Assembly: GCF_011764445.1 (NCBI RefSeq)
Contig: NZ_BLPG01000001.1
Coordinates: forward strand, 8,077,001 to 8,141,000
Direction: 5' to 3'
Length of the DNA: 64,000 nt
DNA from: Phytohabitans rumicis
GTDB lineage: Bacteria > Actinomycetota > Actinomycetes > Mycobacteriales > Micromonosporaceae
The notes under the pieces were generated by a model. The model was not told the DNA's origin. It saw only the letters and a list, made by a program, of their open reading frames with translations, and did not search any database. The translations under genes and the position numbers were made by a program. Positions 4,052 to 21,632 of the stretch are shown here, piece by piece. Within the stretch, counting starts at the first letter, position 1. Each line of letters begins with the position of its first letter.

Positions 4052-4064
4052 AGTGGACAACCCT

Positions 4065-4841: not shown

Positions 4842-4848
4842 GTCCACC

Positions 4849-5286: not shown

Positions 5287-6044
5287 GAAAGCCCCAGTAT
5301 GCGGGCCATGTTCCCGCCCTCGACGAGCGCGCGGTCCGAATCGACGGGAATCGCCTTGGCGATCTTCATGCGCTCCAGGTCGAAGTCCGACCCCGGCCAC
5401 TCGCTGCCCATCAGGATCTGCGTCGGCCCCAGCCGGCCGTACGCGCGGCGCACGTCGCTGAGCAGCGTGGCGGACGTCTCCAGGTAGATGTGCGGGTTCC
5501 GCTCGGCCACGATGATCGCCTCGGGGACGTTCCAGACCGCGCCCATGTGCGCGATGATCGTCGGCACTCCCGGGTGGTGCTTGGCGATCTCCTCGATGGC
5601 CAGGGGCGCGCAGAACGCGTCGTCCAGCGCGTTGATCAGCACCGGCAGCCCGTGCTCCGCGCACGCCTCGAACACCGGGTCGAGCAGGCCGTGGTCGGCC
5701 ACGTGGTACCCGTGCAGGCTGGGGTGCAGCTTGAGCCCGGACAGCCCGGCCGCCGCGATCCGGGCGATCTCGTCGAGCGCGTCGTCGGCCTGCGGCATCA
5801 CCTGGCCGAACCCGAAGAGCCGGTCGGGGTACGACTTGACCAGGTCGATGATGAAGTCGTTCTCGATCCGCTGGGCGAGCGAGCAGACCATGGCCATGTC
5901 CACGCCGGCCGCGTCCATCCGGTCCAGGATCCGGCGCGGGTCGAACGGCGCATACGGCGGCGGCGCCTGCCCGGGGCGCGCGCCGGTCAGGTAGTCCGAG
6001 CGCCCCCGCACGTCCTGCGTGGTGTTGTACGCATCGATGATCAC
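5283..6044 (-). CDS. Amidohydrolase family protein lacking the N-terminal HxH motif
   Basis: A 253-residue TIM-barrel hydrolase of the amidohydrolase_2 type, seen in GLSGLKLHPSLHGY, PTIIAHMGA and the late MGSEWPGSDFD loop. The first strand, which normally reads like IDxHxH and binds metal, here reads [11 protein letters not shown], so both histidines are missing and the Asp of the last motif reads EWPGSD. It may therefore work with altered metal dependence or be a non-hydrolytic relative. The GTG start overlaps the TGA of the ATPase gene upstream (GTGA), and the stop overlaps the next ATG, so it is embedded in a coupled operon. Confidence 0.82.
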   Translation of the reverse strand: MIIDAYNTTQDVRGRSDYLTGARPGQAPPPYAPFDPRRILDRMDAAGVDMAMVCSLAQRIENDFIIDLVKSYPDRLFGFGQVMPQADDALDEIARIAAAGLSGLKLHPSLHGYHVADHGLLDPVFEACAEHGLPVLINALDDAFCAPLAIEEIAKHHPGVPTIIAHMGAVWNVPEAIIVAERNPHIYLETSATLLSDVRRAYGRLGPTQILMGSEWPGSDFDLERMKIAKAIPVDSDRALVEGGNMARILGLS

Positions 6045-6997
6045 GTGGTCACCTCTTCGAGTAGCGGCAGATGGCAGCGGACGGAACGGCCGCCGGGCAA
6101 CGGGCGGAGCGGGGGAGGGGAGGTGCGGCAGGTGTCGATCGCGTAGCGGCAGCGGGGGTGGAAGGCGCACCCGGCGGGCGGGTCGGCGGGGTCGGGCGGC
6201 TCGCCGGTGAGCTCGATCCGTTCCCGCGCCGGCGCCCGGCTCACGGTGGGCACACTGGACAGCAGGGCCTCGCTGTACGGGTGCGCGGGCCCGGCGAAGA
6301 ACGCGTCCCGGTCGGCGATCTCGATGATCTGGCCCAGGTACATGACCGCGATCCGGTCCGCGATGTGCCGTACCACGCCTAGGTCGTGCGAGATGAACAG
6401 CATGGTCAGCCCGCGGTCGCGGATCAGGTCGGCGAGCAGGTTGACCACCTGGGCCTGGATCGACACGTCCAGCGCGGAGACCGGCTCGTCGGCCACGACG
6501 AACCGCGGTGACGGCGCCAGGGCGCGCGCGATGCCGACGCGCTGGCGCTGCCCGCCGGAGAACTCGTGCGGCCGCCGCTCGCCCGCCTCCCGGCCCAGCC
6601 CCACCTGGTCCAACAGGTCGTCGACGACCGGCCGGGCCGCCGCTCGCGACATGCCGCGGGCGCGCCGCAGCGGCTCGGCGATGATGTCCGCGACGCGCCG
6701 CCGCGGGTTCAGCGACCCGAACGGGTCCTGGAAGACCATCTGGAGCTCGGCCCGGGTGCGCCGGAACACCGTGCCGGACAGCCGGGTGATGTCCAGGCCG
6801 CGGTAGTGGATCGTCCCGCCGGTCGGCTCGGTCACGCGTACCAGGGCGCGGCCGAGCGTGGACTTGCCGCACCCGGACTCGCCGACCAGGCCGAGCGTCT
6901 CGCCCTCGAGGATCTCCAGGTCGACGTCGCGGACGGCGCGGGTCCGCCCGAAGTCCACGCGCAGCCCGGAGACCTGCAGCAACGGCTGCGCACTCAT
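6041..6997 (-). CDS. Dipeptide/oligopeptide-type ABC transporter ATP-binding protein (DppF-like)
   Basis: 318 residues with Walker [11 protein letters not shown]-loop [13 protein letters not shown], signature [14 protein letters not shown], Walker [12 protein letters not shown] and the C-terminal oligopeptide-transporter cysteine region [14 protein letters not shown]. It energises uptake of the solute bound by the lipoprotein at 10736-12361, as partner of the ATPase at 7098-8078. The ATG overlaps the TGA of a 35-codon mini-frame encoded by repeat F1, so it is reached by translational coupling through that element. Confidence 0.92.
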
Positions 6998-7101
6998 GCT
7001 GTGCCTGCTGATTCGCTCGCTCGCGCGGCGCTGAAGGCGACGTCTTCCCTCGTCGCTGCGCTCCTCAGTCCAGACGCCGCCGCGCCAGCTCGCTCGCTCA
7101 T
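6994..7101 (-). repeat. Repeat F, copy F1, carrying a 35-codon coupling frame between the two ATPase genes
   Basis: The 108-base spacer is itself an open frame: its ATG overlaps the TGA of the upstream ATPase and its TGA overlaps the ATG of the downstream one. The peptide begins [11 protein letters not shown] and ends [10 protein letters not shown]. The DNA is imperfectly palindromic, with GAGCGAGCGA-rich ends. It resembles F2 at 8079-8207 at both ends (MSER at the start, ASE-SG at the end). Confidence 0.6.
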
Positions 7102-8078
7102 GCCGGCACCTCCGCGAGCACGCACGCGTCCAGGTGACCGCTGTCCGCGTACCGCGAACGCAATGGTGGCGGCGCGGCCGCGCACTCGTCGCGGACGAAC
7201 GCGCACCGCGGCGCGAACGCACACCCCGGCGGGCGCCGCACGCCGGTCAGCGGGCTGCCGGCGATCGCCGGCAGCCGCGGCGTCACCGGCCCATCCACCC
7301 GGGGTACGGAGTCGAGCAGCGCCTTCGTGTACGGGTGCCGCGGCTCGAAGAGCACCTCGTCGCGGGTGCCGTGCTCGACGATCCGCCCGGCGTACATGAC
7401 CGCGACCCGGTCGGCGACCTCGGCGACCACCCCGAGGTCGTGGGTGATCAGGATGATCGTGGTGTCGTGCTCGCCCCGCAGGCGCCCCAGCAGCCGCAGC
7501 ACCTGCGCCTGGATCGTCACGTCCAGCGCCGTGGTCGGCTCGTCCGCGATCAGCACGGCCGGGTCGTTGGCCAGGCCGATCGCGATCATCACGCGCTGCC
7601 GCATGCCGCCGGACAGCTGATGGGGGTACGCCCGCGCGGTGCGCGCCGGGTTGGCGATGCCGACCTCGCGCAGCAGTTCCTCGGCCCGCGCCCACGCCTG
7701 GGTGCGCGGCAGCCGCCGGTGGGTGCGGATCATCTCGGCCACCTGGGCGCCCACCCGCTGCGTCGGGTTGAGGGCCGCGAGCGCGTCCTGGAAGACCACG
7801 GCGATGTCCCGGCCGCGCACCTCGCGCAGCTCCTTCTCGCTCGCGGCGACCAGGTCCCGCCCGTCGAAGTGGACCTGCCCGCCGATGTGCGTACGCGGTC
7901 CGCGGTTGAGGCCGACCAGGCTCATGGCGAGCGCCGACTTGCCGGAGCCGGACTCACCGACGAGCGCCAGCACCTCGCCCCGCCGGACGCTCAGGTCGAC
8001 GCCGTCCACGGCCGGCAGCCGCCCGCCCGGCACGTCGAACTCGACCCGCAGGTTCTTGACTTCAAGGACCGGCGTCAC
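7098..8078 (-). CDS. Dipeptide/oligopeptide-type ABC transporter ATP-binding protein (DppD-like)
   Basis: 326 residues with Walker [10 protein letters not shown], signature [16 protein letters not shown], Walker [14 protein letters not shown]-loop ITHDLG and the C-terminal [14 protein letters not shown] motif of peptide/nickel transporter ATPases. It pairs with the DppF-like protein and the two permeases. I chose the GTG at 8078 because the conserved protein starts there (TPVLEVKNL). The frame is open further back to a GTG at 8207 that overlaps the hydrolase stop, which would add 43 residues encoded by repeat F2; this longer product may be what is actually made. Confidence 0.9.
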
Positions 8079-8207
8079 AGCGCCTGATGGTTCGCTCGCG
8101 CAGCGGCGCCCTGGAGGCGGCGCCTTCCCAGCCGCGGCGGCGTCCGCGGGAGGCGCGTTTCGTGACGCGGCTGGGAAAGCGCCGCCGGCGCCGCTGCGCT
8201 CACTCAC
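8079..8207 (-). repeat. Repeat F, copy F2, between hydrolase and DppD-like gene
   Basis: A long imperfect hairpin (CGCAGCGGCGCC ... GGCGCCGCTGCG, with inner TTCCCAGCCGCG / CGCGGCTGGGAA arms). It starts with a GTG that overlaps the hydrolase TGA and stays in frame with the ATPase gene. The encoded peptide starts MSERSGAGG and ends ASEPSGA, similar at both ends to the F1 peptide. Confidence 0.6.
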
Positions 8208-8880
8208 AGTGACTCCAGGGCGCGTTCGATGAGCGTGGCCACCAACTCCGGGCGTACCCGGGGGGTGAAGTGGCTTCCCGGCACCTCGACGGTGTCGGCG
8301 CCCATCCGCGCGGCCATGTCCCGCTGGATCTCCGGCCGCAACGTGCGGTCGTCGGCGGCGACCAGGTACCAGCTCGGCAGGGTGCGCCAGGCCGGTACGC
8401 CGGTCGGCTCGGTGAAGATGGCGTTCTCGCTGCGCCGGGACTCGGCGTCCCAGACCGGGCGCTGCTCGGGCCGGACGTCCCAGCCGATCTCCTCCCAGTA
8501 CGCCGCGGTGTGCTCGGACTCCCACTCGCCGTTCGGGCCGCGCCGCATGTACTTGGACACCTCGGCCGGCGGGTACCGCTCGACGATCCCGTTGACCGTC
8601 TCGCCCTCGTCCGGCGCGAACGCGGCCACGTACACCAGGCCCTTGACCGGTGCCGCGCGCCCGACGTTGGTGATGACCGCGCCGCCGTAGGAGTGGCCCA
8701 CCAGCAGCACCGGGCCCCGATGGCGTCCACGATGGACGATGTGTGCGCGACGTCGCCGGCCAGCGAGCGCAGCGGGTTGGTGACCGCGGTGACGGCCCGG
8801 CCGGCGGCGGTGAGCAGCGGCACCACCTCCGTCCAGGTGGCAGGCGTGCCACCGGCACCGTGGACCAGGACGATGTGCAT
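8204..8880 (-). pseudogene. Alpha/beta hydrolase, split by a one-base frameshift
   Basis: The first frame gives MHIVLVHGAGGTPATW (oxyanion HG motif) and leads to IVDAIG. The second frame takes over with LLVGHSYGGAVITNVGR (nucleophile Ser in GHSYGG) and ends with PGSHFTPRVRPELVATL, which carries the catalytic His. The two join if one base is added in the run at 8711-8718, giving IVDAIGGPVLLVGHSYGG. The whole is about 225 residues, typical for the family of small esterases and lactone hydrolases. It sits inside the ABC transporter operon between permease and ATPase genes, suggesting action on the imported compound. More likely a sequence error than true decay. Confidence 0.8.
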
Positions 8881-8884
8881 GCGC

Positions 8885-9910
8885 TCACGCCTTCCGCAGC
8901 CGGGGATCGAGGGCGAGGTAGAGCAGGTCCACGCCGACGTTGACGAGGGTGAACAGCAGCGCGATGGCCAGCGCCGCGCCCTGCACTATGGGGTAGTCGC
9001 GCTGCAGGATCGCGTTGACCAGCAGGTTGCCGACGCCCGGGTAGGAGAAGACCGTCTCGGTGATGACCGAGCCGCCGAGCAGCGACCCGAACTGCAGCCC
9101 GAGCACCGTGACGATCGGCAGCGACGAGTTGCGCAGCACGTGCCGGCGCAGGATCGCCGCCGGGGACAACCCCTTCATCCGGGCCGTACGCACGAAGTCG
9201 TCGCCGAGCACCTCCAGCACCGAGGCGCGCACGATCCGGGTGATGAACCCCGCCATCGACAGGGCCAGCGTGGTCGCCGGCAGGATCAGGTGCCGCAGCC
9301 ACGGCAGGATCAGGTCGGGGCGGTCCAGCAGGACCGCGTCGACCAGGACGAAGTTGGTGAACGGCTGGTAGTCCAGGCTCCCCGGCAGCCGCCCGATGAC
9401 GGGCAGCCAGCGCAGCCAGACGCCGAAGACGACGATTCCGAGGACGCCGAGCGCGAACCAGGGCAGCGAGAAGCTGACCGTGCCGGCCGTCCGGGTCAGC
9501 GTGTCGACCCAGGTGTCCTTGCGCAGCGCGGCGAGCACGCCGGTCACGAGGCCGATCAGCACCGCGATCAGCATGGCCGCCACGGTGAGCTCGATGGTGG
9601 CGGGCAGCGCGTCGGCGAGCAGCCCGGTGACGTCGTTGCCGCCGAAGAACGAGCGCCCGAGGTCGAGGCGCACCAGGTCGCCGAGGAACGTCACGTACTG
9701 TTCCCACAGCGGCCGGTCCAGCCCCAGGGCCGCGCTGATCCTGGCCTGGTCCTGGGCGATCTCCGCCGCGCTCTGCTGGCCGCTGGCGCCGCCGGCGGCG
9801 AGCGTGGTCGCGGCCGAGCCGGGCAGCAGGCGCATCGCGATGAAGACCAGCGTGGCCAGGGCCAGCAGCACCACGGGTACGGCCAGCAGCCGCTTGACGA
9901 CCAGCTTCAT
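8885..9910 (-). CDS. Dipeptide/oligopeptide-type ABC transporter permease (DppB-like)
   Basis: 341 residues, with an N-terminal membrane segment (residues 8-30), a large extracytoplasmic loop rich in Gly and Gln, five more membrane segments and the permease EAA-type loop around VRTARMKGLSPAAILRRHVLRNS. The C-terminus LDPRLRK is typical of DppB/OppB proteins. It forms the channel with the DppC-like protein, whose stop overlaps this ATG (ATGA). Solute unknown. Confidence 0.92.
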   Translation of the reverse strand: MKLVVKRLLAVPVVLLALATLVFIAMRLLPGSAATTLAAGGASGQQSAAEIAQDQARISAALGLDRPLWEQYVTFLGDLVRLDLGRSFFGGNDVTGLLADALPATIELTVAAMLIAVLIGLVTGVLAALRKDTWVDTLTRTAGTVSFSLPWFALGVLGIVVFGVWLRWLPVIGRLPGSLDYQPFTNFVLVDAVLLDRPDLILPWLRHLILPATTLALSMAGFITRIVRASVLEVLGDDFVRTARMKGLSPAAILRRHVLRNSSLPIVTVLGLQFGSLLGGSVITETVFSYPGVGNLLVNAILQRDYPIVQGAALAIALLFTLVNVGVDLLYLALDPRLRKA

Positions 9911-10743
9911 GCCGAGCTCCGGTGATCGAGCGAATCGCGTAGGTCGTCGCCGACGAAGTTGCAGGCCACCACGAAGAGCAGGGTGGCCGTCGCGGGCAGC
10001 ACGACCAGCCGCGGCGCCCGGTAGAGGAACTCCTGCCCGGCCTGCACCATGTAGCCCCAGTCCGCGGTCGGCGGCTGGATGCCGAGCCCGAGGTAGGACA
10101 GGCCCGCCGCGAAGCCGGCCGCGATCGACAGCGTCATCACCACCTGGGCGAGCACCGGCCCGGCGATGTTGGGCAGCACCTCGCGTACCAGGATGCCCGG
10201 GGTGCGGGCGCCGCCGAGCCGCGCGGCGAGCACGTAGTCGCGGCCCGCCTCCCGCGCGGCCAGCGCGCGGGCCAGCCGCGCCAGGCCGGGCGCCAGCGCG
10301 GCGCCGATGCCCACCACCAGGCTGGCCACCCCGGGCTGCCAGGCCGTCACCACCAGGATGATCAAAAGCATCGACGGGAACGCCAGCGCGAGGTCCATCA
10401 GCCGCATCAGCACCCACTCGACCCGGCGGCCGGCGTACCCGGCGACCAGCCCGATGCTGACCCCGACCACCGCGGCGAGGGCGGTGGCCAGGAAGGAGAC
10501 CAGCAGCAGCGGCCGGGCACCGTGCAGCATCCGGGCCAGCTCGTCGCGGCCCAGGTCGTCGGTGCCGAGCAGGTGTCCGGGCGCGCCGATCGGCAGCAGC
10601 GTGTCGTTGGTGTTGCGGGTCGGGTCCGCCCCGACGAACAGCGGCCCGACCGCGGCGAGCAGGACGAAGACGGCGACCACCGCCCAGGACGTGGCGGCGA
10701 GCCAACCACGCCCCAGGCGGCGACGGGTCCGCACGTCAGACAC
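9907..10743 (-). CDS. Dipeptide/oligopeptide-type ABC transporter permease (DppC-like)
   Basis: 278 residues. An N-terminal membrane segment precedes the conserved HLLGTDDLGRDELARMLHGAR motif region of DppC-type permeases, followed by four to five membrane segments and the cytoplasmic loop DYVLAARLGGARTPGILVREVLPN. The GTG start lies inside the end of the binding-protein gene (8-base overlap) and its stop overlaps the DppB-like start. It is the second membrane subunit of the importer. Confidence 0.92.
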   Translation of the reverse strand: MSDVRTRRRLGRGWLAATSWAVVAVFVLLAAVGPLFVGADPTRNTNDTLLPIGAPGHLLGTDDLGRDELARMLHGARPLLLVSFLATALAAVVGVSIGLVAGYAGRRVEWVLMRLMDLALAFPSMLLIILVVTAWQPGVASLVVGIGAALAPGLARLARALAAREAGRDYVLAARLGGARTPGILVREVLPNIAGPVLAQVVMTLSIAAGFAAGLSYLGLGIQPPTADWGYMVQAGQEFLYRAPRLVVLPATATLLFVVACNFVGDDLRDSLDHRSSA

Positions 10744-12361
10744 TCGCCTTTTCCATGTAGCACCGGTGGTTGCCGAGGGCCTGCACGTTCATGCCCTTGA
10801 CGCTCGCGCCGCTGACGACGGGGTTCGCCGCGTACGCCAGCATCGTCAGCAGCATGTAGTTCTCCGCCCAGCGGCGCTGGATGCCGCTGTATGCCGCCGC
10901 GCGGGCCGACGCGTCCGGCAGGTTCTTGGCGGTGAACAGGTCGTCGGCGAACTTCGCCGATCCGTCGAGGGTGTTGAAGCCGGAGATGAAGTCGCCGTAG
11001 ACCCCGGACGGCATGGCCAGCGAGCCGATCATGTCGTCGGGGTCCGGGACGTAGATGTTGCGTTCCCAGATCATCAGATCGTGGAACTCGTCCTTCGGGT
11101 CCAGGAGCCGGTTGAAGTACGCGGCCGGGTCGACCGAGGCGGTCACCACCTTGAGCCCGATGTCGGTGAGGTTCTGCGCGACGATCTGCGCCGCCTTCGG
11201 GTGCCAGCTGTCGCTGGCGGCCATCAGGCGGATCTCCCGGCCGGTGGCGCCGGCCTGCTGGATCAGCCGCTTGGCCTCCTCGACGTTGGTGGTGCTCAGG
11301 TCGGCGAGGCTGGTGTCGTGGCCGGTCAGGCCGGGCGGGATGGTGTAGCTCTGCGGCAGCGTGCCGGCGCCGAAGAACGCCTGGGCGATGATGGCCTGCC
11401 GGTCGATGGCCAGGTTGATCGCCTTGCGCACCGCCAGCTCCGGGATCCGCCGGGCGTCCATCATCATGAACGCGTCGAAGGTGGTCGGCGTGTCGTACAC
11501 GGTGACCGACTTGTCGGCCTTGAGCTGGTCCAGCGCGGAGTACGGCGTGAACTGGGTGGCCGAGATGTCGCCGGACAGCAGCGAGCCGACGATCGTGGAC
11601 GGGTCGGTGACCTGCTGGAGCACGAGCCGGTCGATCGGCGGCTTGCCGAGCCGGAACCCGTCGAACGCCGCCAGCACGACGGATTGGCCCGAGGTGGCCG
11701 ATGCGAACTTGAACGGCCCGGTTCCGACCAGGTTCTTGCCGATGTCGGCTCCGTACTTGTCCAGCGCCGCCTTGGAGATGATCCGGCCGCCGATGTCGGA
11801 GAGCTGGTCCAGCAGGGTGCGGTCCGGGGCCTTGAGCACCATCACGACGGTCTGGGCGTCGGGCGCGGTCATCGACGCGAGGTTCGTGCCGACGCTGCGC
11901 AGCGGCCGGGACGAGCCCTCCGGCAGCGTCTTGTCGGTGTCGTCGAACTGCCGGTTCAGGCTGGCCAGCACGTCCGCCGAGGTGAATTGGGTACCGTCGT
12001 GGAAGGTCACACCCTGCCGGAGCTTGAACGTGTAGGTGAGCTGGTCGTCGGAGATGGTCCAGCTCTCGGCCAGGTCCGGCTCCGGCTCGTTCGACTCGAA
12101 GGAGATGAAGGTCAGGCCACGGCAGATGCAGTCGACCGCCATCCAGTCGCCGAGCGTGGTGTAGAAGGCGGGGTCGTTGACGGCGCTGGTGCCGTCGATG
12201 GCGAGCGTCAGGGTGCCACCGGTCTTCGCGGAATCGCCGTCGGCCTCGTCGGCGGCCACACCGCAGGCGCTGAGCAGGCCGGTCATGCCGGCCCCGATGC
12301 CCATGCCGAGCAGGCCGGCACCGCGCAGCAGCGCACGCCGGGATACGGGTTGCTGGATCAT
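10736..12361 (-). CDS. ABC transporter substrate-binding lipoprotein (SBP_bac_5 family), Tat-type signal
   Basis: 541 residues. The N-terminus has a twin-arginine motif SRRALLRGAG, a hydrophobic stretch and a lipobox ending LLSAC, so it is probably exported folded and lipid-anchored. The body matches family 5 binding proteins: LTYTFKLRQGVTFHDGTQFT, RSVGTNLASM, VRKAINLAIDRQAI and the late YVPDPDD segment. It binds the solute for the adjacent Dpp-type permeases and ATPases. It is the first gene of the leftward operon that continues to the MBL hydrolase; 41 to 72 bases upstream lie two copies of the GntR-type operator, so its expression is likely tied to that regulator. Confidence 0.93.
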   Translation of the reverse strand: MIQQPVSRRALLRGAGLLGMGIGAGMTGLLSACGVAADEADGDSAKTGGTLTLAIDGTSAVNDPAFYTTLGDWMAVDCICRGLTFISFESNEPEPDLAESWTISDDQLTYTFKLRQGVTFHDGTQFTSADVLASLNRQFDDTDKTLPEGSSRPLRSVGTNLASMTAPDAQTVVMVLKAPDRTLLDQLSDIGGRIISKAALDKYGADIGKNLVGTGPFKFASATSGQSVVLAAFDGFRLGKPPIDRLVLQQVTDPSTIVGSLLSGDISATQFTPYSALDQLKADKSVTVYDTPTTFDAFMMMDARRIPELAVRKAINLAIDRQAIIAQAFFGAGTLPQSYTIPPGLTGHDTSLADLSTTNVEEAKRLIQQAGATGREIRLMAASDSWHPKAAQIVAQNLTDIGLKVVTASVDPAAYFNRLLDPKDEFHDLMIWERNIYVPDPDDMIGSLAMPSGVYGDFISGFNTLDGSAKFADDLFTAKNLPDASARAAAYSGIQRRWAENYMLLTMLAYAANPVVSGASVKGMNVQALGNHRCYMEKASV

Positions 12362-12401: not shown

Positions 12402-12432
12402 TGGGATCTAATCTGACCAACATTGGATCCAA
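12402..12432. promoter_or_regulatory. Predicted GntR operator pair upstream of the binding-protein operon
   Basis: A perfect palindrome TTGGATCCAA at 12423-12432 and a weaker copy TGGGATCTAA at 12402-12411. Their starts are 21 bases apart, the same spacing as in the gntR/amine-oxidase region. Confidence 0.65.
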
Positions 12433-12483
12433 CTATGGGTGCTGGTCGCTGCGGGCCCGTGTCACGTTTGTGAAGCTCTTGTT

Positions 12484-14348
12484 TCAGCCCGCGTGGCAGT
12501 GCCCGGTCGACGGGTCGGGGACGTCCATCGCCGGGTTGCGGTCGAAGAAGCCGTCCGGTTCGAGTACGAGGTGGATGGTCTCGACGGGCATCACCGGCCA
12601 CTGCTCCGGGCGCGGCAGGTGGTGGGTGCCCAGCACCGGCCACAGCACCAGCGGCACCCCGTCGATCGAGCGCTCCTGCCGCTGCCACACGTGTACGCCG
12701 TCCTCGCCCGGCTCGGCGTGGTTGGGGTACTGCCCGCCGATGAAGCGCTCCGCCTCGTCGTACGGCGTGGCCCACAGGTGCTGGTGGATGAAGGGCGCCC
12801 GCCGGGCCATCACCGAGCCGGGGTCGCCGAACGAGCGGGTGGTGTCCGGGATGCGCAGCCGGTACGCGGTGGGCTCGCCGTACCGGTTGGTGGCGGTGGC
12901 GCTCTCCACCCGCCAGTGCCGGGCGACGGTCGGGTCCGTACGCCGCCCCGTCTCCGTGGCCAGCGGCGTACGCACGTAGCGGACCGCGTTGCCGTACGGG
13001 TTGAGTGCCGGGTCCGGCTCGGGTTCCGCGTGCTCCTCGACGAGCCGGCTTCGCGGACCGTCGACCGCCATGTCCAGCCGGATGCCGAAGTAGTGCTGGT
13101 GGATGGGCGTCTGCACGCGCGGGGCCACGACCCGGCCGTACCGCACCTGCTCGCCCTCGGTGATCCCGGAGGCGGACAGGATGCCGGTCAGCTTGACCTC
13201 CAACTCGACGCGCCCGTCCTGGAAGAGCGACCAGTAGAAGCCGTAGTCGTAGTTGGCCACGGTCTGGAAGTTGGAGATGATCAGCCGGCGGGAGCGGCGC
13301 ACGGCGTTGACCCCGCGGCGCAGGTCGTTGTGCTTCCAGAGGATGCTGGCGTCCTCTTCGTGCATGCACACGGCCTGCCGGATCGTCTGCGGCTCGCCGG
13401 CACCGCCCAGGTACGTGCCGTCGAAGTAGTGGATGACGCCCAGGCAGTCGCAGCCCAGGGCGAGCGAGTTGGTGAGCGGACCGGCGCCGTACTCGCCCAG
13501 TCGAAGAAGTTCTTGCGGTACTGGGTCGAGTTGGGGTCCAGGTACGGCACGTACATCTCGTTGCAGGCGGCCCTTTTGAGCACGGAGCGGCCGAGGAACT
13601 CCAGGTCGTACAGGACCAGGCCCTCGCGGTGGGTGAAGCCGACCCGGAACGTCCAGCCCTGCCAGCTCACCCGCCAGCCGTCCACGGTGAAGCTCGGCCC
13701 GTCCGGCTGCACGACGTCGAGCGGCTTGAGACCGGGCCTTTGTTCTTTGTTTTTCAGCGGCGCGGCCTCATCGGAGACCGGTACGACGCCGTGGTCCTCG
13801 ACCTCCAGGACCTCCATCGTGTGCATGTCGATGATGGGGATGACGCCCTGCACCGGCCGGGCGTACCCGTTGTCGTCCTCGGTGGTGCGGTGCCAGACGG
13901 TGCCCCAGGTGACCCGGCGGTCCTTGTACTTCTCCGGCTCGAAGCCGCCCATCGACTCGGCGTCGACCATGACGAGGGAGACGTCGTGGATGCCGCGCTT
14001 GGCGAGCGCCGCGCGGAACAGCGGGCTCGCCCGGCACGCCTGGGCGGCGGCGCGCGCCTCGTCCGAGGTGATGCCGGGCCGGCGCGGGTCGATCGGCCGC
14101 CAATCCACACAGGACGCCTCGCCGCCGTCGACCAGCACGTCGACCTCCCACGCGGCTTCCGCGTGCAGGGCCACCAAGCCCAGCCGCGTACCGGTAGCCT
14201 GACCGGCGACCACCCGGCGGGCGTGCGCCTCGTCGAGGGTGGCGCCCCAGAACCGGGTGCGCGCGCCGAGCCGGCCGTCCGCGCGGGCCGCGGCGACGGC
14301 GAGGGCGATCTCGGTGGCGTTCGGGGGGTCGAGAGGGTGGGACCGCAT
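12484..14348 (-). pseudogene. Copper amine oxidase (topaquinone type), split by a one-base frameshift
   Basis: The two frames together encode about 621 residues, the size of bacterial copper amine oxidases. The first frame runs from MRSHPLD to YRKNFFDW; the second continues as GEYGAGPLTNSLALGCDC and reaches the C-terminus. Adding one base in the C run at 13496-13498 joins them. The cofactor site VANYDYG (Tyr near residue 367, precursor of topaquinone) and copper ligands in PIHQHYFGIRLD are present. The enzyme oxidises a primary amine to an aldehyde with release of ammonia and hydrogen peroxide. It lies directly across from gntR, with a double operator between them, and an aldehyde dehydrogenase is encoded in the neighbouring operon. 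Confidence 0.87.
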
Positions 14349-14369
14349 CGGCCGGCTCCTATCCTGGAG

Positions 14370-14400
14370 TTGGATCCTAAGCTACTCTAAGTGGATCCAA
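14370..14400. promoter_or_regulatory. Predicted GntR operator pair between amine oxidase and gntR
   Basis: TTGGATCCTA at 14370-14379 and GTGGATCCAA at 14391-14400 start 21 bases apart. The outermost bases also form an inverted repeat TTGGATCC / GGATCCAA. The position between divergent starts fits autoregulation plus control of the amine oxidase. Confidence 0.7.
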
Positions 14401-14421
14401 AGTTCTCAGACGAGGGACATG

Positions 14422-15117
14422 ATGGACGCCACAACAGAGGTGGGCACGAGCAGCGCGCTCGTCGACGAGACCGCGGCCGCGATTCGGGCCCGGATCATGT
14501 CCGGCGACATCCCGATCGGGGCGCAGCTGCGCCAAGCCGAGCTGGCCAAGACGCTCGGGGTCAGCCGCACCCCGGTCCGCGAGGCGCTGCGCCAGTTGCA
14601 GGCCGGCGGCCTGATCGAGGTGGTGCCCAACCGGGGCGCGGTCGTGCGGGTGCCGGCGCCGTGGGAGGTGCGCGAGGCGTACGAGGTGCGCGCCGAGCTG
14701 GAGGGGCTGGCCTGCGTGCGCGCGGTCGACCGGATCAGCCGGGACACCCTCGACGAGCTGCGCGCCACCAACGAGCTGCTGCGGCCGGGTGACGCGCCGC
14801 CCAACCCGGCCTCGCACGCCGCCAACGACCGGTTCCACACGCTGATCCACCAGATCGCCGGCAACGAGCGCCTGGCCAAGGTGATCCGGGAGATCAACGA
14901 GGCGTTCCCCCGCAACGTCTCCGCCCTGGTCCTGCAGGACAACCCCCGCCACCGCGTAGACAACTTCGCCGAACACGCCCGCATCCTCGATGCCCTCGCG
15001 GCGGAAGACGCCGCAACCGCGCGCCACGAAATGCAGTCCCACGTGTTGAGCGCCGGAGAACAGCTCGCGCGCTGGTACGAACGCCGCAGCGCGACGATCT
15101 TGCTCCGTCGATCTTGA
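14422..15117 (+). CDS. GntR family transcriptional regulator, FadR/FCD subfamily
   Basis: 231 residues. The N-terminal winged helix shows LRQAELAKTLGVSRTPVREALRQL-type recognition sequence (residues about 34-57) and a wing at VVPNRGAVVRV. The C-terminal all-helical FCD domain has the usual ligand/metal histidines (FHTLIHQIAGN, EHARILDAL, ARHEMQSHV). The effector is likely a small carboxylate or amine intermediate of the pathway, by analogy to the family. The second of two adjacent ATGs is used because GAGGG lies five bases before it; the first at 14419 is too close. It is divergent from the amine oxidase across a paired operator, and its TGA lies inside repeat B1. Confidence 0.92.
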   Translation: MDATTEVGTSSALVDETAAAIRARIMSGDIPIGAQLRQAELAKTLGVSRTPVREALRQLQAGGLIEVVPNRGAVVRVPAPWEVREAYEVRAELEGLACVRAVDRISRDTLDELRATNELLRPGDAPPNPASHAANDRFHTLIHQIAGNERLAKVIREINEAFPRNVSALVLQDNPRHRVDNFAEHARILDALAAEDAATARHEMQSHVLSAGEQLARWYERRSATILLRRS

Positions 15118-15166
15118 AGTTGTCATGCCGGGATGTCCGGAATGGCACCTGACAAGTCCAAGATCG
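15109..15166. repeat. Palindromic repeat B, copy B1, shared by two convergent gene ends
   Basis: A 58-base imperfect palindrome: outer arms CGATCTTG / CAAGATCG, then TTGTCA / TGACAA and TGCC / GGCA. The TGA of gntR and the TGA of the opposing aminotransferase/oxidase gene both lie within it. It could act as a bidirectional terminator. The second copy is at 30813-30870. Confidence 0.75.
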
Positions 15167-17408
15167 GCGGTGGATCCCCGGCCACGATGGCGCCGATCGC
15201 GGGACCGAACTTGAAGCCGTGGCCCGAGCATGCCGACGCGACGAGGACCTGCGGGGTTTCGGGGAGCGCGCCGACCAGGAAGCGGTTGCGCGGGGCCATG
15301 GTGTAGCGGCAGGCGACGGTGTCCACCACGTCGCCGTCCGCGCCGGGCACGAAGCGGCGGGCCAGCGCTAGCAGCTCACCCGCCTCCGCCGCGGTCACCG
15401 GCGACTGTGGACGGTCCGGGTCGGCGGGCGGGCCGTGGTCCAGGCCCACCTTCACCGCGCTGCCGCCGAAGGCCGGAATGCCGTACAGCAGCCCCACACC
15501 GGGCACGTCGACCGAGAAGGTGCCGAGGTTTGGCGGCGCCACCGCCGTGGGGTCGGACGCTCCGATGTGGACGTTCACGATCCGGACCACGCGCAGTGCC
15601 TCGCGAAGGCGGGGGACGAGCGCGCCGGTCCACGGTCCGGCGGCGATGACGAGCCTATCCGCGTAGACAGTCCCTCGCGGAGTGTGCACCGCCACCCCGC
15701 TCCCGTCGGCGGTCCAGCTCTCGGCGGGGCAGGCCGTGTGGCGTACCACCCCGTGCGCCAGGCCGAGCTCGCGCAGCGACCGCATCGCCTGCGCGGCGTC
15801 GATGATGCCCGCCGCCGGGTCGTAGACGGCCGTGAAGTCCGGGCCCAGCCGCAGCCCCGGAAACAACTCGGCGGCCCGCGCCGGATCCACGATTTCGCAC
15901 CCCGGTCCCCGCAGTCCCGGCGGTCCCGGGCGGGCGTAGAGACCGCCCGTCGTGGTGACCAGCGCCCGCCCAGCGGCGGCGCTCAGCTCGTCCCACGCCC
16001 GGTACGCGCGGTCCACCAGGTCGTCCCACGCCGCATCCGGGTACGCGCGGCGGATCATCCGGGTGTGCCCGTGCGACGACCCTTCGGTGTGCCCGTCCGG
16101 AAACCGGTCGAGCTGGACCACGCGGGCGCCACGTCGAGCCAGCTGCCAGGCGGCCGACAGGCCGTGCACGCCCGCGCCGATGACGGCCACGTCCGCGCGG
16201 TCCCCGGAGCGCAGCAGAGAGGGTGTGGTTGCCGTGCGGGGGCCGCGCAGGGCGTTGGTCAGGGCCTCGACGTCGCCGTCGTCGTTGTAGACGTGCACCG
16301 AGGCGCGGACCACGGCGGGCAGGCCGCGCCGGCCGAGGTCCCACTGGCCGTGGCTGGCCGGCACGGACACCAGGTGCACGCCGGCTGCCCGCAGCCGCCG
16401 TACCGTGTCGGCCGGGGAGTGTCCATCGTGGACGAAGGTGACGATCGCGCCGCCGCCCGCGGGCGGGTCGGCGAGGCGTACGCCGGGGACGTCCGCGAGC
16501 GCCGCGCGCAGCCGGCCGGCGAGCGCGGTCAGGTGCTCGCCGATGCGCGCCACGCCCAGCTCCAGCGCCTCGGTGAGCGCGGCACCGAGCCCGAGCCGCA
16601 ACGCGTGCGCGGACTCCCACGTCTCGTACCGCCGGGCGCCGGCCGTCACGTCGTACTCCTGGTCGCCGCTCCAGTGCGCACCGCGTACGTCCGGATGCGG
16701 CGGGCGCAGCCGGGCCCGCATCGCGGGGCTGACGTACAGCAGGCCGGTGCCGCGCGGGCCGCGCAGGAACTTGCGCCCGGTCGCCACCGCGATGTCGCAG
16801 CCGATCGCGGCCACGTCGACCGGCAGCTGCCCGACCGACTGGGTGGCGTCCAGCAGCACCGGCACGCCCGCGGCGGCGGCCAGCGCACCGACCGCCGCGA
16901 CGGGTTCGACCAGCGCCGAGGAGGTCGGCACGTGGGCCACCGTGACGAGTGCCGCCGGCTCCCGCAGCGCCTTCTCCAGCGCGTCCAGGTCGACCGCGCC
17001 GGTGCGGTCGCACGGCAGCACCTCGACCACGACGCCCCGGCTGCGGCGCAGCTCCAGCAGGTGCAGCGCCGAGCTGACGTAGCTGGACGCCGCGGCGAGG
17101 ATCCGGTCGCCGGGGCGCAGCGGCAGCGCCTCGACGGCCCGCTGCCAGGCGACCGTCGCGCTCTCCACCAGGGCGACGTCGTCCGGCTGGGCGCCCAGCA
17201 GGCGGGCGGCCAGGGCGTAGACGTTCTCGCTGCGGTCGCGCGCGGCCTCGGCCGCCTCGTACCCGCCGATCCGCGACTCCAGCCGCAGGTGCTCGACGAC
17301 GGTGGCGAGCACGGTCTCGCTCGGCAGCGCCGCGCCCGCGGCGTTGAAGTGCCGCGCGTACCGCGTCCCCGGCGTAGCCGCCCGCAGCGCTGCGGTATCC
17401 AGCGTCAT
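15123..17408 (-). CDS. Fusion of class V aminotransferase and sarcosine-oxidase-like FAD oxidoreductase
   Basis: One frame of 761 residues. Residues 1-390 are a class V PLP enzyme related to cysteine desulfurases/isopenicillin N epimerases: VLLDATQS (Asp187) and the PLP lysine in ATGRKFLRGPRG (Lys213). After a linker of about 15 residues a complete flavoprotein begins: DVAVIGAGVHGLSAAWQL (dinucleotide motif), EGSSHGHTRMIRRAYPD, and a late TVACRYTM whose Cys corresponds to the covalent-FAD cysteine of monomeric sarcosine oxidases, ending with SGHGFKFGPAIG. No stop or start lies at the junction in any frame nearby, so the fusion looks genuine, though frame errors elsewhere call for caution. It may oxidise a secondary or N-methyl amine. 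Its ATG overlaps the aldehyde dehydrogenase stop (ATGA). Confidence 0.8.
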   Translation of the reverse strand: MTLDTAALRAATPGTRYARHFNAAGAALPSETVLATVVEHLRLESRIGGYEAAEAARDRSENVYALAARLLGAQPDDVALVESATVAWQRAVEALPLRPGDRILAAASSYVSSALHLLELRRSRGVVVEVLPCDRTGAVDLDALEKALREPAALVTVAHVPTSSALVEPVAAVGALAAAAGVPVLLDATQSVGQLPVDVAAIGCDIAVATGRKFLRGPRGTGLLYVSPAMRARLRPPHPDVRGAHWSGDQEYDVTAGARRYETWESAHALRLGLGAALTEALELGVARIGEHLTALAGRLRAALADVPGVRLADPPAGGGAIVTFVHDGHSPADTVRRLRAAGVHLVSVPASHGQWDLGRRGLPAVVRASVHVYNDDGDVEALTNALRGPRTATTPSLLRSGDRADVAVIGAGVHGLSAAWQLARRGARVVQLDRFPDGHTEGSSHGHTRMIRRAYPDAAWDDLVDRAYRAWDELSAAAGRALVTTTGGLYARPGPPGLRGPGCEIVDPARAAELFPGLRLGPDFTAVYDPAAGIIDAAQAMRSLRELGLAHGVVRHTACPAESWTADGSGVAVHTPRGTVYADRLVIAAGPWTGALVPRLREALRVVRIVNVHIGASDPTAVAPPNLGTFSVDVPGVGLLYGIPAFGGSAVKVGLDHGPPADPDRPQSPVTAAEAGELLALARRFVPGADGDVVDTVACRYTMAPRNRFLVGALPETPQVLVASACSGHGFKFGPAIGAIVAGDPPPILDLSGAIPDIPA

Positions 17409-18829
17409 AGGGCGATCACGACGGATTTGGGTTCGCAGAACGCCTTCAGGGCGTCGTCGCCCAACTCGCGGCCGAGGCCCGAGTCGCGGACGCCGCCGTA
17501 CGGCAGGGCCGGGTCGAAGATGTTGTAGGTGTTGACCCAGACGGTGCCGGCCCGCAGCGCCGCCGCCATCCGGTGCGCGCGGGACAGGTCGCGGGTCCAG
17601 ACGCCGGCCGCCAGCCCGTACGCCGTGTCGTTGGCGATCGCGACCGCCTCGGCCTCGTCCTCGAACGCGATGACGCCGGCCACCGGACCGAAGATCTCCT
17701 CCCGGGCGATCACCATGTCGTTGGTGACGCCGGTGAAGAGCGTCGGTTCGACGAAGTAGCCGGGCCGGTCCGGCACCCCGCCGCCGACCGTGACCGTCGC
17801 GCCCTCCGCGGTGCCCTTCGCGATGTACGACAGCACCTGCTGCCGCTGCTCCTCGGAGACCAGCGGGCCGACCGAGACGCCGCCGTCCAGCCCGTTGCCG
17901 ACCGGGACGCGGCGGGTGGCCGCGCTCAGCCGCGCGGTCATCTCCTCCACAATGGACCTTTGCACGAGGATCCGGCTGCCGGCCGTACACATCTGTCCGG
18001 AGTGGCCGAACGACGCCCGCATCGCCGTCACGGTGGCGGCGTCCAGGTCGGCGTCCGCGAAAATGATGTTCGGGCTCTTGCCGCCCAGTTCGAGGGTGAG
18101 GCGCTTGGTGGTGTCGGCTGCGGCGGCCATCACCAGCCGACCGACCTCTGTGGACCCGGTGAACGACACCTTCGCCACGCCGGGGTGCGCCACCAGCGCC
18201 GCGCCGACCCGGCCGTCGCCGGTCAACACGTTCAGTACGCCGTCCGGCAGGCCGGCGCCGGCGCAGAGCCGGGCCAGCCGCAGCATCGTCAGCGGGGTCT
18301 GCTCGGCCGGCTTGACCACCACCGGGCAGCCGGCGGCCAGCGCGGGCGCCAGCTTGTGCGCGGCCGTCATGATCGGAAAGTTCCACGGCAGCACCAGGGC
18401 CGCGACGCCGACCGGTTCCAGCGCCGTGTACACGTGGTGAGCGCCGCCGTCGATCGGGATCACGGTGCCGGTCAGCCGGCCGGGCGCGCCCGCGAAGTGC
18501 CGGAAGTCCTTGGCGGCGAAGGCGACGTCGGCGCGGGAACGCTCGATCGGCTTGCCGTTGTCCCGGGTCTCCAGGACGGCCAGCTCCTCCAGGTGCTCCT
18601 CGATCAGGTCGGCGATCCGGGTCAGCACGCGCGTGCGTTCCAGCGGCGCCAGCCCCGACCAGCGGCGGTCGGCGTACGCCCGCGCGGCGGCGGCGACCGC
18701 CCGGTCGACGTCCACTGTGGTCGCTTGCGCCACGGCGGTGAACGGGGCGCCGGTGGCCGGGTCGACGACCGGGATCGTCTCCCGGTCGCCCGGGGCGATC
18801 CACTCGCCGTCGATCAGGAACGGTTCCAT
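17405..18829 (-). CDS. Aldehyde dehydrogenase family protein
   Basis: 474 residues with all family residues: PWNFPI (Asn150), LELGGKSPN (Glu247), SGQMCTAGSR (catalytic Cys281), FTGSTEVG and the late EEIFGPV. It oxidises an aldehyde to the carboxylate with NAD(P). Here the likely substrates are aldehydes made by the amine oxidase or the flavoprotein of the same region. Its stop overlaps the start of the aminotransferase/oxidase fusion, and eight bases separate it from the upstream ligase gene. Confidence 0.95.
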   Translation of the reverse strand: MEPFLIDGEWIAPGDRETIPVVDPATGAPFTAVAQATTVDVDRAVAAAARAYADRRWSGLAPLERTRVLTRIADLIEEHLEELAVLETRDNGKPIERSRADVAFAAKDFRHFAGAPGRLTGTVIPIDGGAHHVYTALEPVGVAALVLPWNFPIMTAAHKLAPALAAGCPVVVKPAEQTPLTMLRLARLCAGAGLPDGVLNVLTGDGRVGAALVAHPGVAKVSFTGSTEVGRLVMAAAADTTKRLTLELGGKSPNIIFADADLDAATVTAMRASFGHSGQMCTAGSRILVQRSIVEEMTARLSAATRRVPVGNGLDGGVSVGPLVSEEQRQQVLSYIAKGTAEGATVTVGGGVPDRPGYFVEPTLFTGVTNDMVIAREEIFGPVAGVIAFEDEAEAVAIANDTAYGLAAGVWTRDLSRAHRMAAALRAGTVWVNTYNIFDPALPYGGVRDSGLGRELGDDALKAFCEPKSVVIAL

Positions 18830-18837
18830 CGTGCTCC

Positions 18838-20283
18838 TTAGAACAGGTCCAGGTACTCGCGCTGCTCCCAGTCGGAGACGTGCGCCAGGTAGCGGGCGAA
18901 CTCTTCGCGCTTGAGGTGGGCGTACCAGGCGACCACCCGCTCGCCGAACGCCTCGGCGAAGACCGGGTCCGCCGCCAGCGCGTCGACCGCGGCACCGAGC
19001 GAGGCGGGTAGGCGTACGGCGTCGGCGGCGTACGGGCTGTCGGCCGCCGGCCCCGGGTCCAGGCCGCGGCGCAGGCCGTCCAGCCCGCTGGCGACCTGCG
19101 AGGCGATGTAGAGGTACGGGTTGGCGGCCGGCTCGCCGGACCGGTTCTCCAGCCGTACGCCGGAGTCGCTCCCCGCGCCGGCCACCCGGACCATCGCGCC
19201 CTTGTTGTCCACGCCCCAGACCACCCGGTTCGGGGCGAGCGAGTACGGCAGGTACCGCTTGTAGCCGTTCACCGTCGGGGTGGTGAACGCGGCGGCGGCC
19301 GGCGCGTGCGCGAGCAGGCCGCCCAGGTAGTGCGCCATGACGTCGGTGTCCGTGTCGAACGCCGGGCGCCCGGTCGCCCGGTCGCGCAGCGACTGGTGCA
19401 GGTGCCAGCCGGTGGAGGCGCTGGTGGCGCCGGCGGGCCGGGACATGAACGTGGCGTGGTAGCCGGCGCGGCGGCACAGCTGGCGGATCGCCGAGCGGGC
19501 CAGTACGACGTGGTCGGCGGCGAGCCGCGCGTCGGTCGCGGCCAGCGTGATCTCCAGCTGGCTCGGCCCGAACTCCAGCTCGATCGAGCGCAGCGGCAGG
19601 TCGAGCCCGGTCAGGCCGCGGTGCAACAGGCCCACGACGTCGTCGAGCCGGTCCAGGGCCTCCTCGTGCAGCAGTTGCCCACCCGCGGACGTGGGTGCCA
19701 GGCCGCCGGCGTACACGTGAAACTCGAGCTCGACGCCGACGGTCATGTCGTATCCGGCGGCGGCCAGCCGATCCAGCTGTGCGCGCAGCAGGCTCCGGGT
19801 GCAGAACGGCACCGGCGAACCGTCGGGGAAGCGCACGTCGCAGAGCACCCAGCCGGTGCGCCCGGCCCACGGCAACACCCGGAACGTGGTCGGGTCCGGC
19901 ACCAGCACGATGTCGCCGGCCCCGGCGAAGCCCTCGACGCCGACCCCGACGTCGGCCGAGAAGACCGGAAACGCCGAACGGCCGGACGTGTCCTTGAGCA
20001 GCAGCGAACTGGGCGCCGTCACGCCCGAGCGGAGCGCGCCCGGCACCGCCTCGCGGGTCAGCGTCTTGCCGTGCAGCACGCCGTGCTGGTCGGCGAAGGC
20101 GAAGCGGACCAGGTCCAGGCCGACCTCGTCGATGACCCGGCGCAGCTGGCCGGCGGCGGCGTACTGGGCCGGGCTCCACAGGTCGTGCCGCTCGACGAAC
20201 CCGCCCCGCTCGCCGGCCAGCATCGGGCGGGCGGACGCGCCGTCCCCGCCCTCCGCGACGGGCCGCTCGTCGACGCTGGTCAC
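18838..20283 (-). CDS. Glutamine-synthetase-like ligase (gamma-glutamyl-amine synthetase type)
   Basis: 481 residues, type I GS fold: GVELEFHVY, IELEFGPSQLEIT, STGWHLHQSL, TVNGYKRYLPYSLAPNRVVWG (shown in part) and ENRSGEPAANPYLYIAS. Relatives outside core nitrogen assimilation ligate glutamate to amines such as putrescine, isopropylamine or aniline. The neighbours (Rieske oxygenase, aldehyde dehydrogenase, amine oxidase, a gamma-glutamyltransferase in the co-regulated operon) favour that role over ammonium assimilation. The GTG start overlaps the Rieske stop (GTGA). The exact amine cannot be read from the sequence. Confidence 0.88.
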   Translation of the reverse strand: MTSVDERPVAEGGDGASARPMLAGERGGFVERHDLWSPAQYAAAGQLRRVIDEVGLDLVRFAFADQHGVLHGKTLTREAVPGALRSGVTAPSSLLLKDTSGRSAFPVFSADVGVGVEGFAGAGDIVLVPDPTTFRVLPWAGRTGWVLCDVRFPDGSPVPFCTRSLLRAQLDRLAAAGYDMTVGVELEFHVYAGGLAPTSAGGQLLHEEALDRLDDVVGLLHRGLTGLDLPLRSIELEFGPSQLEITLAATDARLAADHVVLARSAIRQLCRRAGYHATFMSRPAGATSASTGWHLHQSLRDRATGRPAFDTDTDVMAHYLGGLLAHAPAAAAFTTPTVNGYKRYLPYSLAPNRVVWGVDNKGAMVRVAGAGSDSGVRLENRSGEPAANPYLYIASQVASGLDGLRRGLDPGPAADSPYAADAVRLPASLGAAVDALAADPVFAEAFGERVVAWYAHLKREEFARYLAHVSDWEQREYLDLF

Positions 20284-21607
20284 GGCTTCGCCCACGGGGA
20301 CCGCGCGCGGCGCTCGGCCTCGCGGCGCCGCCAGGCGTCCTCCCAGCCGTCGGCCGGCGCGACCGTGTCGACGGCGAGGGGCCCGGTGAGGAGGGCGGCA
20401 TCGGTCGCGTCGACCGGCCGGGCGGGCACCGCGCCGCCCTGCTCGAACGCGTCGATCGCGCGCAGCAGCAGCCGGCGGTTCGCGGTGACGGCACGGTCGG
20501 ACACGCCCAGCCGCTCGGTGGTGCGGTCCTGGATGGGCCCCATGCTCTCGACCGCCCACTGGTCGTGGACGTTGATGTCCAGGCCCATTCCTGTGTACGT
20601 CAGGTCGCGCTGCTCGCCCGGGTCGTACCCCCAGTTGTTGGACCGGTTGCGCAGCGGCCGGTAGTCCGGCAGCGACACCTCGCGCAGCCGCTGCGCCAGC
20701 AGCGTGGCCTTGTCCGTCGGCTCGGCGAAGTCGTAGAAGATCATGTACCAGTAGTGGTGCTCGTCGTCGACCGGCACGTGCCACTGGATGAAGACCTTGC
20801 TGTTGCCGAACGGCACGACGAACGCGTTGGGAAACACCAGGTTGGTGATCCGGACGTGCCGGACCTCGTCGGTCAGCCGCCGCAGCGCGTACACCCGCAG
20901 CCCGTGCGGCGCGGCCTCCACCTCGATGTCCGGCCGGTACGCGTCGCCGACCAGCTTGGACAGCTTCTGCCCGGTGCCCTCCACGACCTCGCTGAACTGC
21001 TGCCCGTACGCGTCGCGCGGGTCCTCGTCGATGAACCGGTGCAGGAACGAGACGTGGCTGGGGTCGATGCCGCCCTCCAGCCCTTGGAGCCAGTTGCAGT
21101 CCCACAGCCCTTGAACGCGAACGTGTACTCGTCCGGCGCGCCGAAGCAGTCGTACGCCGGGAACGGCGGCGGGTCGCCCTCGCCGAGGTACGCGAAGACG
21201 ATGCCGTTGCGCTCCACACAGGGATAGCTGGGGATGCGCACCTTCTCGGCGAACCGGCTGTGCGGCGGCTCCGCCGGCTGCTCGCGGCAGCGGCCGTCCG
21301 GCCCGTAGAGCCAGCCGTGGTAGAGGCAGCGCAGCCCGCCGTCCTCGTGCCGGGCGTACGCGAGGTCGACGCCGCGGTGCGCGCAGAACCGCCCGACCAG
21401 GGCCCAGCCGCCATCGTCCGTCCTGAACAGCACGAGGTCCTCGCCGAGCAGCCGGACCGGCTTGACCGGCCGGTCGGCGGGCATCTCGGAGACCAGCGCC
21501 GCCGGCTGCCAGTACGCCCGCATGAGCCGGCCCAGCGGCGTACCGGGACCCGTGCGCGTCACCCGTTCGTTCTCCTCACGCTTCAGCACCGCACCACCCA
21601 CCCGCAT
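20280..21607 (-). pseudogene. Rieske non-heme iron oxygenase, alpha subunit, split by a one-base frameshift
   Basis: Together the frames encode about 442 residues. The Rieske [2Fe-2S] ligands are Cys75 and His77 (FCAHRG) and Cys94 and His97 (RCLYHGW). The mononuclear iron site follows in the second frame at GGIDPSHVSFLHRFIDED. The join needs one base added in the run at 21108-21110, restoring KGLWDCNWLQG. The layout resembles phthalate/phenoxybenzoate-type oxygenases, which use a separate reductase; no reductase gene is seen here. The family usually begins near LKREENERVTRTG, so the GTG at 21589 is an alternative to the ATG at 21607. A GntR-type operator lies 16 bases upstream, and it heads the four-gene operon. 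Confidence 0.87.
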
Positions 21608-21622
21608 CCGATGTCGCCAAGA

Positions 21623-21632
21623 TTGGATCCAA
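21623..21632. promoter_or_regulatory. Predicted GntR operator upstream of the Rieske operon
   Basis: A perfect TTGGATCCAA palindrome, flanked by A and T to give ATTGGATCCAAT. It is identical to the site before the binding-protein operon. No strong second site at 21-base spacing is seen. Confidence 0.65.

Follow-up and report, generated by a model that had tools for sequence, protein, structure and literature searches.

We analysed a 64,000-nucleotide stretch of the Phytohabitans rumicis genome (RefSeq assembly GCF_011764445.1, contig NZ_BLPG01000001.1, positions 8,077,001 to 8,141,000 of the forward strand), hereafter the window, and describe a catabolic gene cluster within it together with the GntR-type regulator encoded at positions 14422 to 15117. 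Comparison of related sequences strongly supports, as a prediction, that this regulator, which carries an FCD effector domain, governs three transcripts from composite operators, each consisting of a palindrome and a partner 21 bases away, and we consider it very likely that it does so as a repressor released by an amine metabolite. About 17 genes for the uptake and oxidation of an amine are probably repressed by it. The motif had been noticed by eye in a preliminary description of the window; it can now be worded as a precise, testable operator rule across many Actinomycetota, a rule that marks which genes group together in the catabolic cluster.

The main operator box, TTGGATCCAA, is found as an exact copy at two positions of the window: (i) at 12423 to 12432 in the promoter of the binding-protein operon, where an exact copy also precedes the orthologous gene in relatives, and (ii) at 21623 to 21632 in the promoter of the Rieske oxygenase operon. 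The first copy is accompanied by a second box with two mismatches, TGGGATCTAA, at 12402 to 12411, and relatives retain its GGAT half-site at equal distance from the main box. Two boxes with one mismatch each, TTGGATCCTA at 14370 to 14379 and GTGGATCCAA at 14391 to 14400, lie in the gap that separates gntR from the amine oxidase gene. A sequence scan placed these five boxes where the preliminary description had seen them, and the starts of both pairs that it had named, at the binding-protein promoter and in the gntR/amine oxidase gap, are exactly 21 bases apart. It had taken the box at 21623 as single; a half-site box, CCGCATCCGA, lies 21 bases from it at 21602 to 21611, recurs in relatives and makes the Rieske promoter a paired one too. 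Its statement that the box occurs nowhere else in the window holds for exact copies but not for a one-mismatch box, TCGGATCCAA, at 63794 within an open reading frame (ORF). Predicted starts in the window sequence are located about 16 to 71 bases downstream of the boxes. If up to two mismatches are allowed, the 64 kb contain ten matches, by itself an unremarkable number, since 6 of 100 shuffles reach ten (mean 6.04, standard deviation 2.33).

We scanned the whole genome (10,714,690 bases in three contigs) with the reversed motif as control. The exact box occurs at four places, two of them at this locus, and the control at none; one of the other two copies is within a called ORF and one just past an ORF end. 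A double box in the 21-base register with up to three mismatches is present at two places, both at this locus, again with no control match. The motif is not frequent in coding sequence, and the pair is confined to this locus. A single one-mismatch box is weak evidence, since 49 genomic places compare with 14 for the control. The weight of evidence rests on the exact copies, the 21-base pair and conservation.

Within the family, the regulator is present in 21 of 200 sampled genomes, that of P. rumicis included, and cluster genes surround it in all 20 other positive genomes, for which up to 20 kb around the regulator were compared (the stretch of one, G197, ends at a contig end). Boxes recur in relatives at the orthologous promoters, that is, ahead of both the binding-protein gene and the Rieske gene and in the gap between regulator and amine oxidase genes, which are the conserved sites that the preliminary description had proposed to look for. 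Exceptions are G023, whose gap is free of any box with up to one mismatch, and G031 and G091, which are without an exact copy. In the stretches of G031, G091 and G107 the cluster genes have a diverged arrangement, and no counterpart of the window's binding-protein operon was found there. The class-V pyridoxal phosphate (PLP) gene has a box upstream in 7 of the 20 relatives and none in the window, where the aldehyde dehydrogenase and PLP genes overlap. The 20 regulator-positive genomes hold 67 exact copies of the 10-mer, of which by our own count 54 are in the cluster (53 in the compared stretches and one upstream of the G197 binding-protein gene on a separate contig) and 13 elsewhere. It occurs at four places in 19 regulator-negative family genomes, taken from the listed negatives with one incomplete genome excluded.

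In a sample of the phylum, the regulator was found in 3 of 396 genomes, that of P. rumicis included, at E 1e-60. We scanned the best 80 of 127 relatives of the regulator in Actinomycetota, some strains of which overlap the family set. The genera represented include Actinoplanes, Catenuloplanes, Winogradskya, Nonomuraea, Acrocarpospora, Streptomyces, Rhodococcus, Pseudonocardia, Jiangella, Kineosporia, Microbacterium, Curtobacterium, Rathayibacter, Agreia, Herbiconiux, Amycolatopsis, Micromonospora and Phytohabitans. Of the 80 loci, 25 show an exact box in the 400 bp preceding the regulator match and 70 show one with up to one mismatch there, against 2 of 234 control stretches. With operators predicted at three promoters in the window and the box beside the regulator in most of these loci, the GntR regulon with paired palindromes put forward in the preliminary description is upheld as a prediction.

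A set of 92 loci, comprising the window, the 80 scan loci and 11 further loci, allows the position of the boxes to be compared with that of the genes. Boxes with up to one mismatch are present in 91 of the 92 loci; 254 lie outside and 1 inside tblastn matches to cluster proteins, the bases counted being 377,379 outside and 1,037,939 inside cluster-gene homology. For exact boxes the counts are 121 outside and none inside. Merging boxes within 40 bp gave 228 promoter regions, and removal of those with flanks more than 60% alike left 142. Of these 142 promoters, 127 show an in-register half-site, GGAT or ATCC, 21 bases to either side of the main box; for offsets of 15, 18, 20, 22, 25, 28 and 31 the corresponding numbers are 7, 1, 6, 7, 1, 4 and 0. 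A partner with at least 7 of 10 letters accompanies 109 promoters and lies at 21 in 91 of these, whereas with shuffled flanks the mean is 19.35 partners (maximum 30), with 0.785 at 21 (maximum 4). On the better-matching side, the partner retains both halves in 50 promoters, the distal half only in 41, the proximal half only in 31 and neither in 20 (n = 142). The usual operator is therefore one good palindrome with a weaker partner, as at the three promoters of the window. None of the 142 anchors departs from G3, A5, T6 or C8. Ranking of all 10-mers gives weak support to the box: ATTGGATCCA occurs outside cluster genes in 66 of the 80 loci, and GC-rich words reach 65 and 64. Ranking of palindromes places TTGGATCCAA first, with 42 versus 30 for the next.

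The regulator is a protein of 231 amino acids on the forward strand (an ATG at 14419 is also possible), with an N-terminal GntR winged helix (PF00392, 66 bits against a cut-off of 27) and a C-terminal FCD domain (PF07729, 81.8 bits against 24.3). The metal-ligand pattern of FCD domains is one Asp or Asn with three His, and the sequence of the regulator carries this pattern in N135, H139, H185 and H207, putative metal ligands that are invariant in 15 orthologues. Its predicted structure (mean predicted local distance difference test score, pLDDT, 79.1; predicted template modelling score, pTM, 0.67) has seven C-terminal helices, and its best fold matches include Atu1419 of the VanR group; the VanR effector domain has six helices and the FadR effector domain seven. 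A fold search among solved structures returned PmiR of Pseudomonas aeruginosa (7xp0, 7xp1) as best match (E 1.4e-11) and Atu1419 at E 3.0e-10, and a sequence-profile search placed PmiR first and Atu1419 third. PmiR belongs to another bacterial group and has other target genes. The operator core of the FadR subfamily is TNGT...ACNA, and the box, TTGG-AT-CCAA, does not match this core, its position 4 being G, not T, in 0.95 of entries. The label FadR-type given earlier can be refined: the protein is an FCD-type GntR regulator closer to PmiR and Atu1419 than to FadR itself. It is a new protein within the already known FCD-type GntR kind.

Atu1419 of Agrobacterium fabrum (VanR group, PF07729) is among the closest described systems. 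In the excerpts available of the report on it, Atu1419 represses a catabolic pathway; it binds a 10-mer palindrome, ATGTATACAT, in which G3 is contacted by Arg45, and a change of G3/C8 abolishes binding (PMC7797058). Both proteins are FCD-type GntR regulators with a 10-base palindrome, and both have the recognition helix SRTPVREAL. Judged by the same excerpts, the two palindromes agree at positions 2, 3, 5, 6, 8 and 9 (TG-AT-CA) and differ at positions 4 and 7, which are T and A for Atu1419 and G and C in the window box. The excerpted text further gives two Atu1419 sites 190 or 109 bp apart, with looping by a tetramer proposed (PMC7797058), in contrast to the partner at 21 bases in the window. 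The common recognition helix and the agreement of the palindromes make direct recognition of the box by the window regulator likely, and the comparison predicts position 4/7 as discriminating.

From the boxes, their spacing, their conservation and the gene content, we infer binding, repression, inducer, a single stimulon and pathway as follows. The 14422–15117 protein would bind, probably as two dimers on one helix face, to a composite operator formed by one good palindrome TTGGATCCAA and a weaker or half copy starting 21 bases away. In doing so it would control (i) the operon of binding-protein, transporter and hydrolase genes, (ii) gntR together with the divergent copper amine oxidase gene and (iii) the operon encoding the Rieske oxygenase, a ligase, an aldehyde dehydrogenase and a PLP-flavin fusion. 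The repressor would block initiation and also repress its own gene, a reading that the short distance from the boxes to the predicted starts fits. Its release would be brought about by a metabolite derived from the amine and probably bearing a carboxylate, and would turn on amine uptake, gamma-glutamylation or oxidation, and aldehyde oxidation. The ligand of the regulator would point to the substrate.

Several points weigh against this regulon. Ten of the 80 scan loci are without a box of up to one mismatch upstream of the regulator, eight having one at two mismatches and two (L139 and L142) at four or five. In P. suffuscus and P. maris (G031 and G091), in which the regulator is 66% identical, there are one-mismatch boxes only and no exact copy. 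At least 5 of the 13 out-of-cluster exact copies in the family lie within called ORFs. The 142 anchors were selected at up to one mismatch anywhere, which tends to raise the apparent conservation of the box, not of the partner at 21, and the counts are not independent, the loci being related. Scans for sigma-70-like promoters gave none near the boxes. Two boxes at one regulator gene are not proof of a single stimulon; the earlier count of at least 16 genes stands, with about 17 now counted, and their forming one stimulon is an assumption. Finally, one-mismatch boxes lie at 5825957, 5827668 and 5828580 (L177:5958, 7669 and 8581) near a GntR/FCD paralogue of 36% identity in the same genome (G000:C1:5828588).

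These last boxes imply that the box may not be exclusive to the 14422–15117 regulator, and they lend some weight to the alternative, which we consider unlikely, that the boxes are read by another regulator or shared with a GntR paralogue, the regulon then being larger or differently wired. One of the three, at 5825957, is upstream of an aldehyde dehydrogenase gene and has, read by eye, an ATCC half-site at +21. However, 9 of the 10 paralogue loci found lack any box of up to one mismatch, 2 of 3 loci with orthologues of the 36% paralogue have none with up to two, and the box accompanies the present regulator in 70 of 80 loci, some of which differ in their other genes. The paralogue gene itself adjoins an aldehyde dehydrogenase gene and a gamma-aminobutyric acid transaminase gene.

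That the regulator activates, or activates at some promoters and represses at others, seems to us slightly less probable again: the two-box layout leaves the sign unsettled and the promoter scans recognised no core promoter in their vicinity, but the boxes are close to start codons and the fold relative Atu1419 is described as a repressor in the excerpted report (PMC7797058). Chance or functionless inheritance of the boxes can practically be dismissed, because promoters with flank identity of at most 60% keep box and partner at 21 where shuffled flanks do not, and because boxes avoid the cluster genes (254 to 1), even though descent or transfer links the loci and single one-mismatch boxes are common in the genome. 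We retain repression from composite operators by the 14422–15117 protein. A wider reading is rather doubtful: in it, a rigid two-dimer operator, made of a palindrome and a half-site two full helical turns apart, is obligatory for this FCD-type GntR clade across Actinomycetota, and it controls an undescribed pathway that combines gamma-glutamylation of an amine with oxidation by a Rieske enzyme and by a bifunctional PLP-flavin fusion enzyme, perhaps with a beta-ketoadipate end.

All cluster genes other than the regulator are on the reverse strand, and operon membership was assigned from strand and spacing. The binding-protein operon begins with a family 5 solute-binding protein of an ATP-binding cassette (ABC) transporter (10736–12361; PF00496, 254.6 bits), followed by an ABC permease (9907–10743; PF00528), a second permease (8885–9907, upper limit approximate; identified by ORF, translation and orthologues in relatives), an alpha/beta hydrolase (8204–8880; PF12697 on the longer piece, frame change at about 8716–8731) and two ABC ATPases, one at 7098–8200 (upper limit approximate; translation and orthologues in relatives) and one of oligopeptide type at 6041–7000 (upper limit approximate; PF00005, PF08352). 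Then come an Amidohydro_2 family hydrolase (5283–6050, upper limit approximate; PF04909), a cytidine-deaminase-like protein (4849–5290; PF00383, 29.7 bits), a creatininase-family protein (4065–4847; PF02633, 222.3 bits) and a Cyclase-family hydrolase (3311–4060; PF04199, with the arylformamidase model under its cut-off). A gamma-glutamyltranspeptidase-family gene (1867–3414, true start probably nearer 3300; PF01019, 281 bits) would also belong to this operon; relatives of it are present in many related loci, and its position falls outside the stretches taken from the nearest relatives.

The copper amine oxidase gene spans 12484–14348 (PF01179, PF02728; frame change at about 13494–13515). The third operon consists of genes for the Rieske oxygenase with a LigXa-like C-terminal domain (20280–21607; PF19301, PF00355; frame change at about 21056–21179), a glutamine-synthetase-like ligase (18838–20283; PF00120), the aldehyde dehydrogenase (17405–18829; PF00171, 577.8 bits) and, identified by domain searches, a fusion of a class-V PLP enzyme with a sarcosine-oxidase-like flavoenzyme (15123–17408, 761 amino acids). 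All three frame changes noted above (amine oxidase, Rieske oxygenase, alpha/beta hydrolase) were seen against a Catenuloplanes relative and reflect either assembly errors or decay of the cluster in this strain; a same-genus genome has split genes as well. The PLP-flavin fusion is recurring: among 78 loci with a match, 36 have the two enzymes in a single frame, 40 have them side by side but unfused and 2 have another arrangement.

The cluster is matched to no described pathway, and a literature search for its gene combination among openly licensed papers found no description. The best solved relative of the ligase is NpaA1 (8wwu, E 1e-113), which in the available part of its report glutamylates aromatic amines (PMC11335346). 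NpaA1/AtdA1-type glutamyl organic amide synthetase (GoaS) systems, as that part describes them, likewise have the ligase alongside a Rieske oxygenase gene (PMC11335346); unlike them, as far as that text allows the comparison, the window cluster has no recognised AtdA2-like amidotransferase-type hydrolase or aniline dioxygenase set and instead has the transpeptidase-family gene, the copper amine oxidase and the PLP-flavin fusion. By analogy, the NpaA1-related ligase beside a Rieske enzyme suggests that the amine is first gamma-glutamylated, and together with the PLP-flavin fusion this pair suggests chemistry of interest. The putrescine Puu pathway brings together gamma-glutamyl ligase, flavin amine oxidase and aldehyde dehydrogenase, a grouping that the window cluster has as well, with the Rieske oxygenase and the copper amine oxidase in addition. 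Scores for the putrescine pathway itself were far under the cut-offs (GGputSyn 240.9 of 650 bits, PuuC 422.6 of 850 bits). Names of an ergothioneine-type lyase, the kynurenine pathway and the aniline pathway were rejected in the same way, and the PLP domain scored 172 bits against a cut-off of 400 in its nearest model, that of the EgtE sulfoxide lyases (TIGR04343). We claim no pathway name because the family scores are under curated cut-offs. In the portion available of the report on BguR, the 10-mer string sits in a primer and the BguR operator differs (PMC3585215).

Boxes also precede other genes in some relatives. In Microbacteriaceae and Micromonospora they stand before genes for binding proteins that belong to other families and for a cupin, and in Micromonospora zingiberis (G107) before a gamma-glutamyltranspeptidase gene. 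Boxes before such non-orthologous transporter and cupin genes are what one would expect of a box that goes with its regulator, and these targets fit a catabolic regulon that recruits local transporters. Two Actinoplanes relatives (G154 and G191) carry an exact box between 3-oxoadipyl-CoA-thiolase-like and LysR genes (L149:4037, L150:4032), 34–41 kb from the cluster and with a CoA-transferase gene adjoining. The thiolase scores 444.7 of 597 in the 3-oxoadipyl-CoA model, under the cut-off, and the second half-site is, by eye, at 22; this box is only a hint of an aromatic end point. Three genomes of one genus have an exact box outside the cluster, close to where an ORF of about 335–355 amino acids starts (L153:4043, L158:4052, L159:4054). 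The window regulator is 84–88% identical to the Catenuloplanes and Actinoplanes copies versus 65% to those of two congeners (L056, L058), and three congeners are without it; this patchy distribution possibly reflects horizontal transfer.

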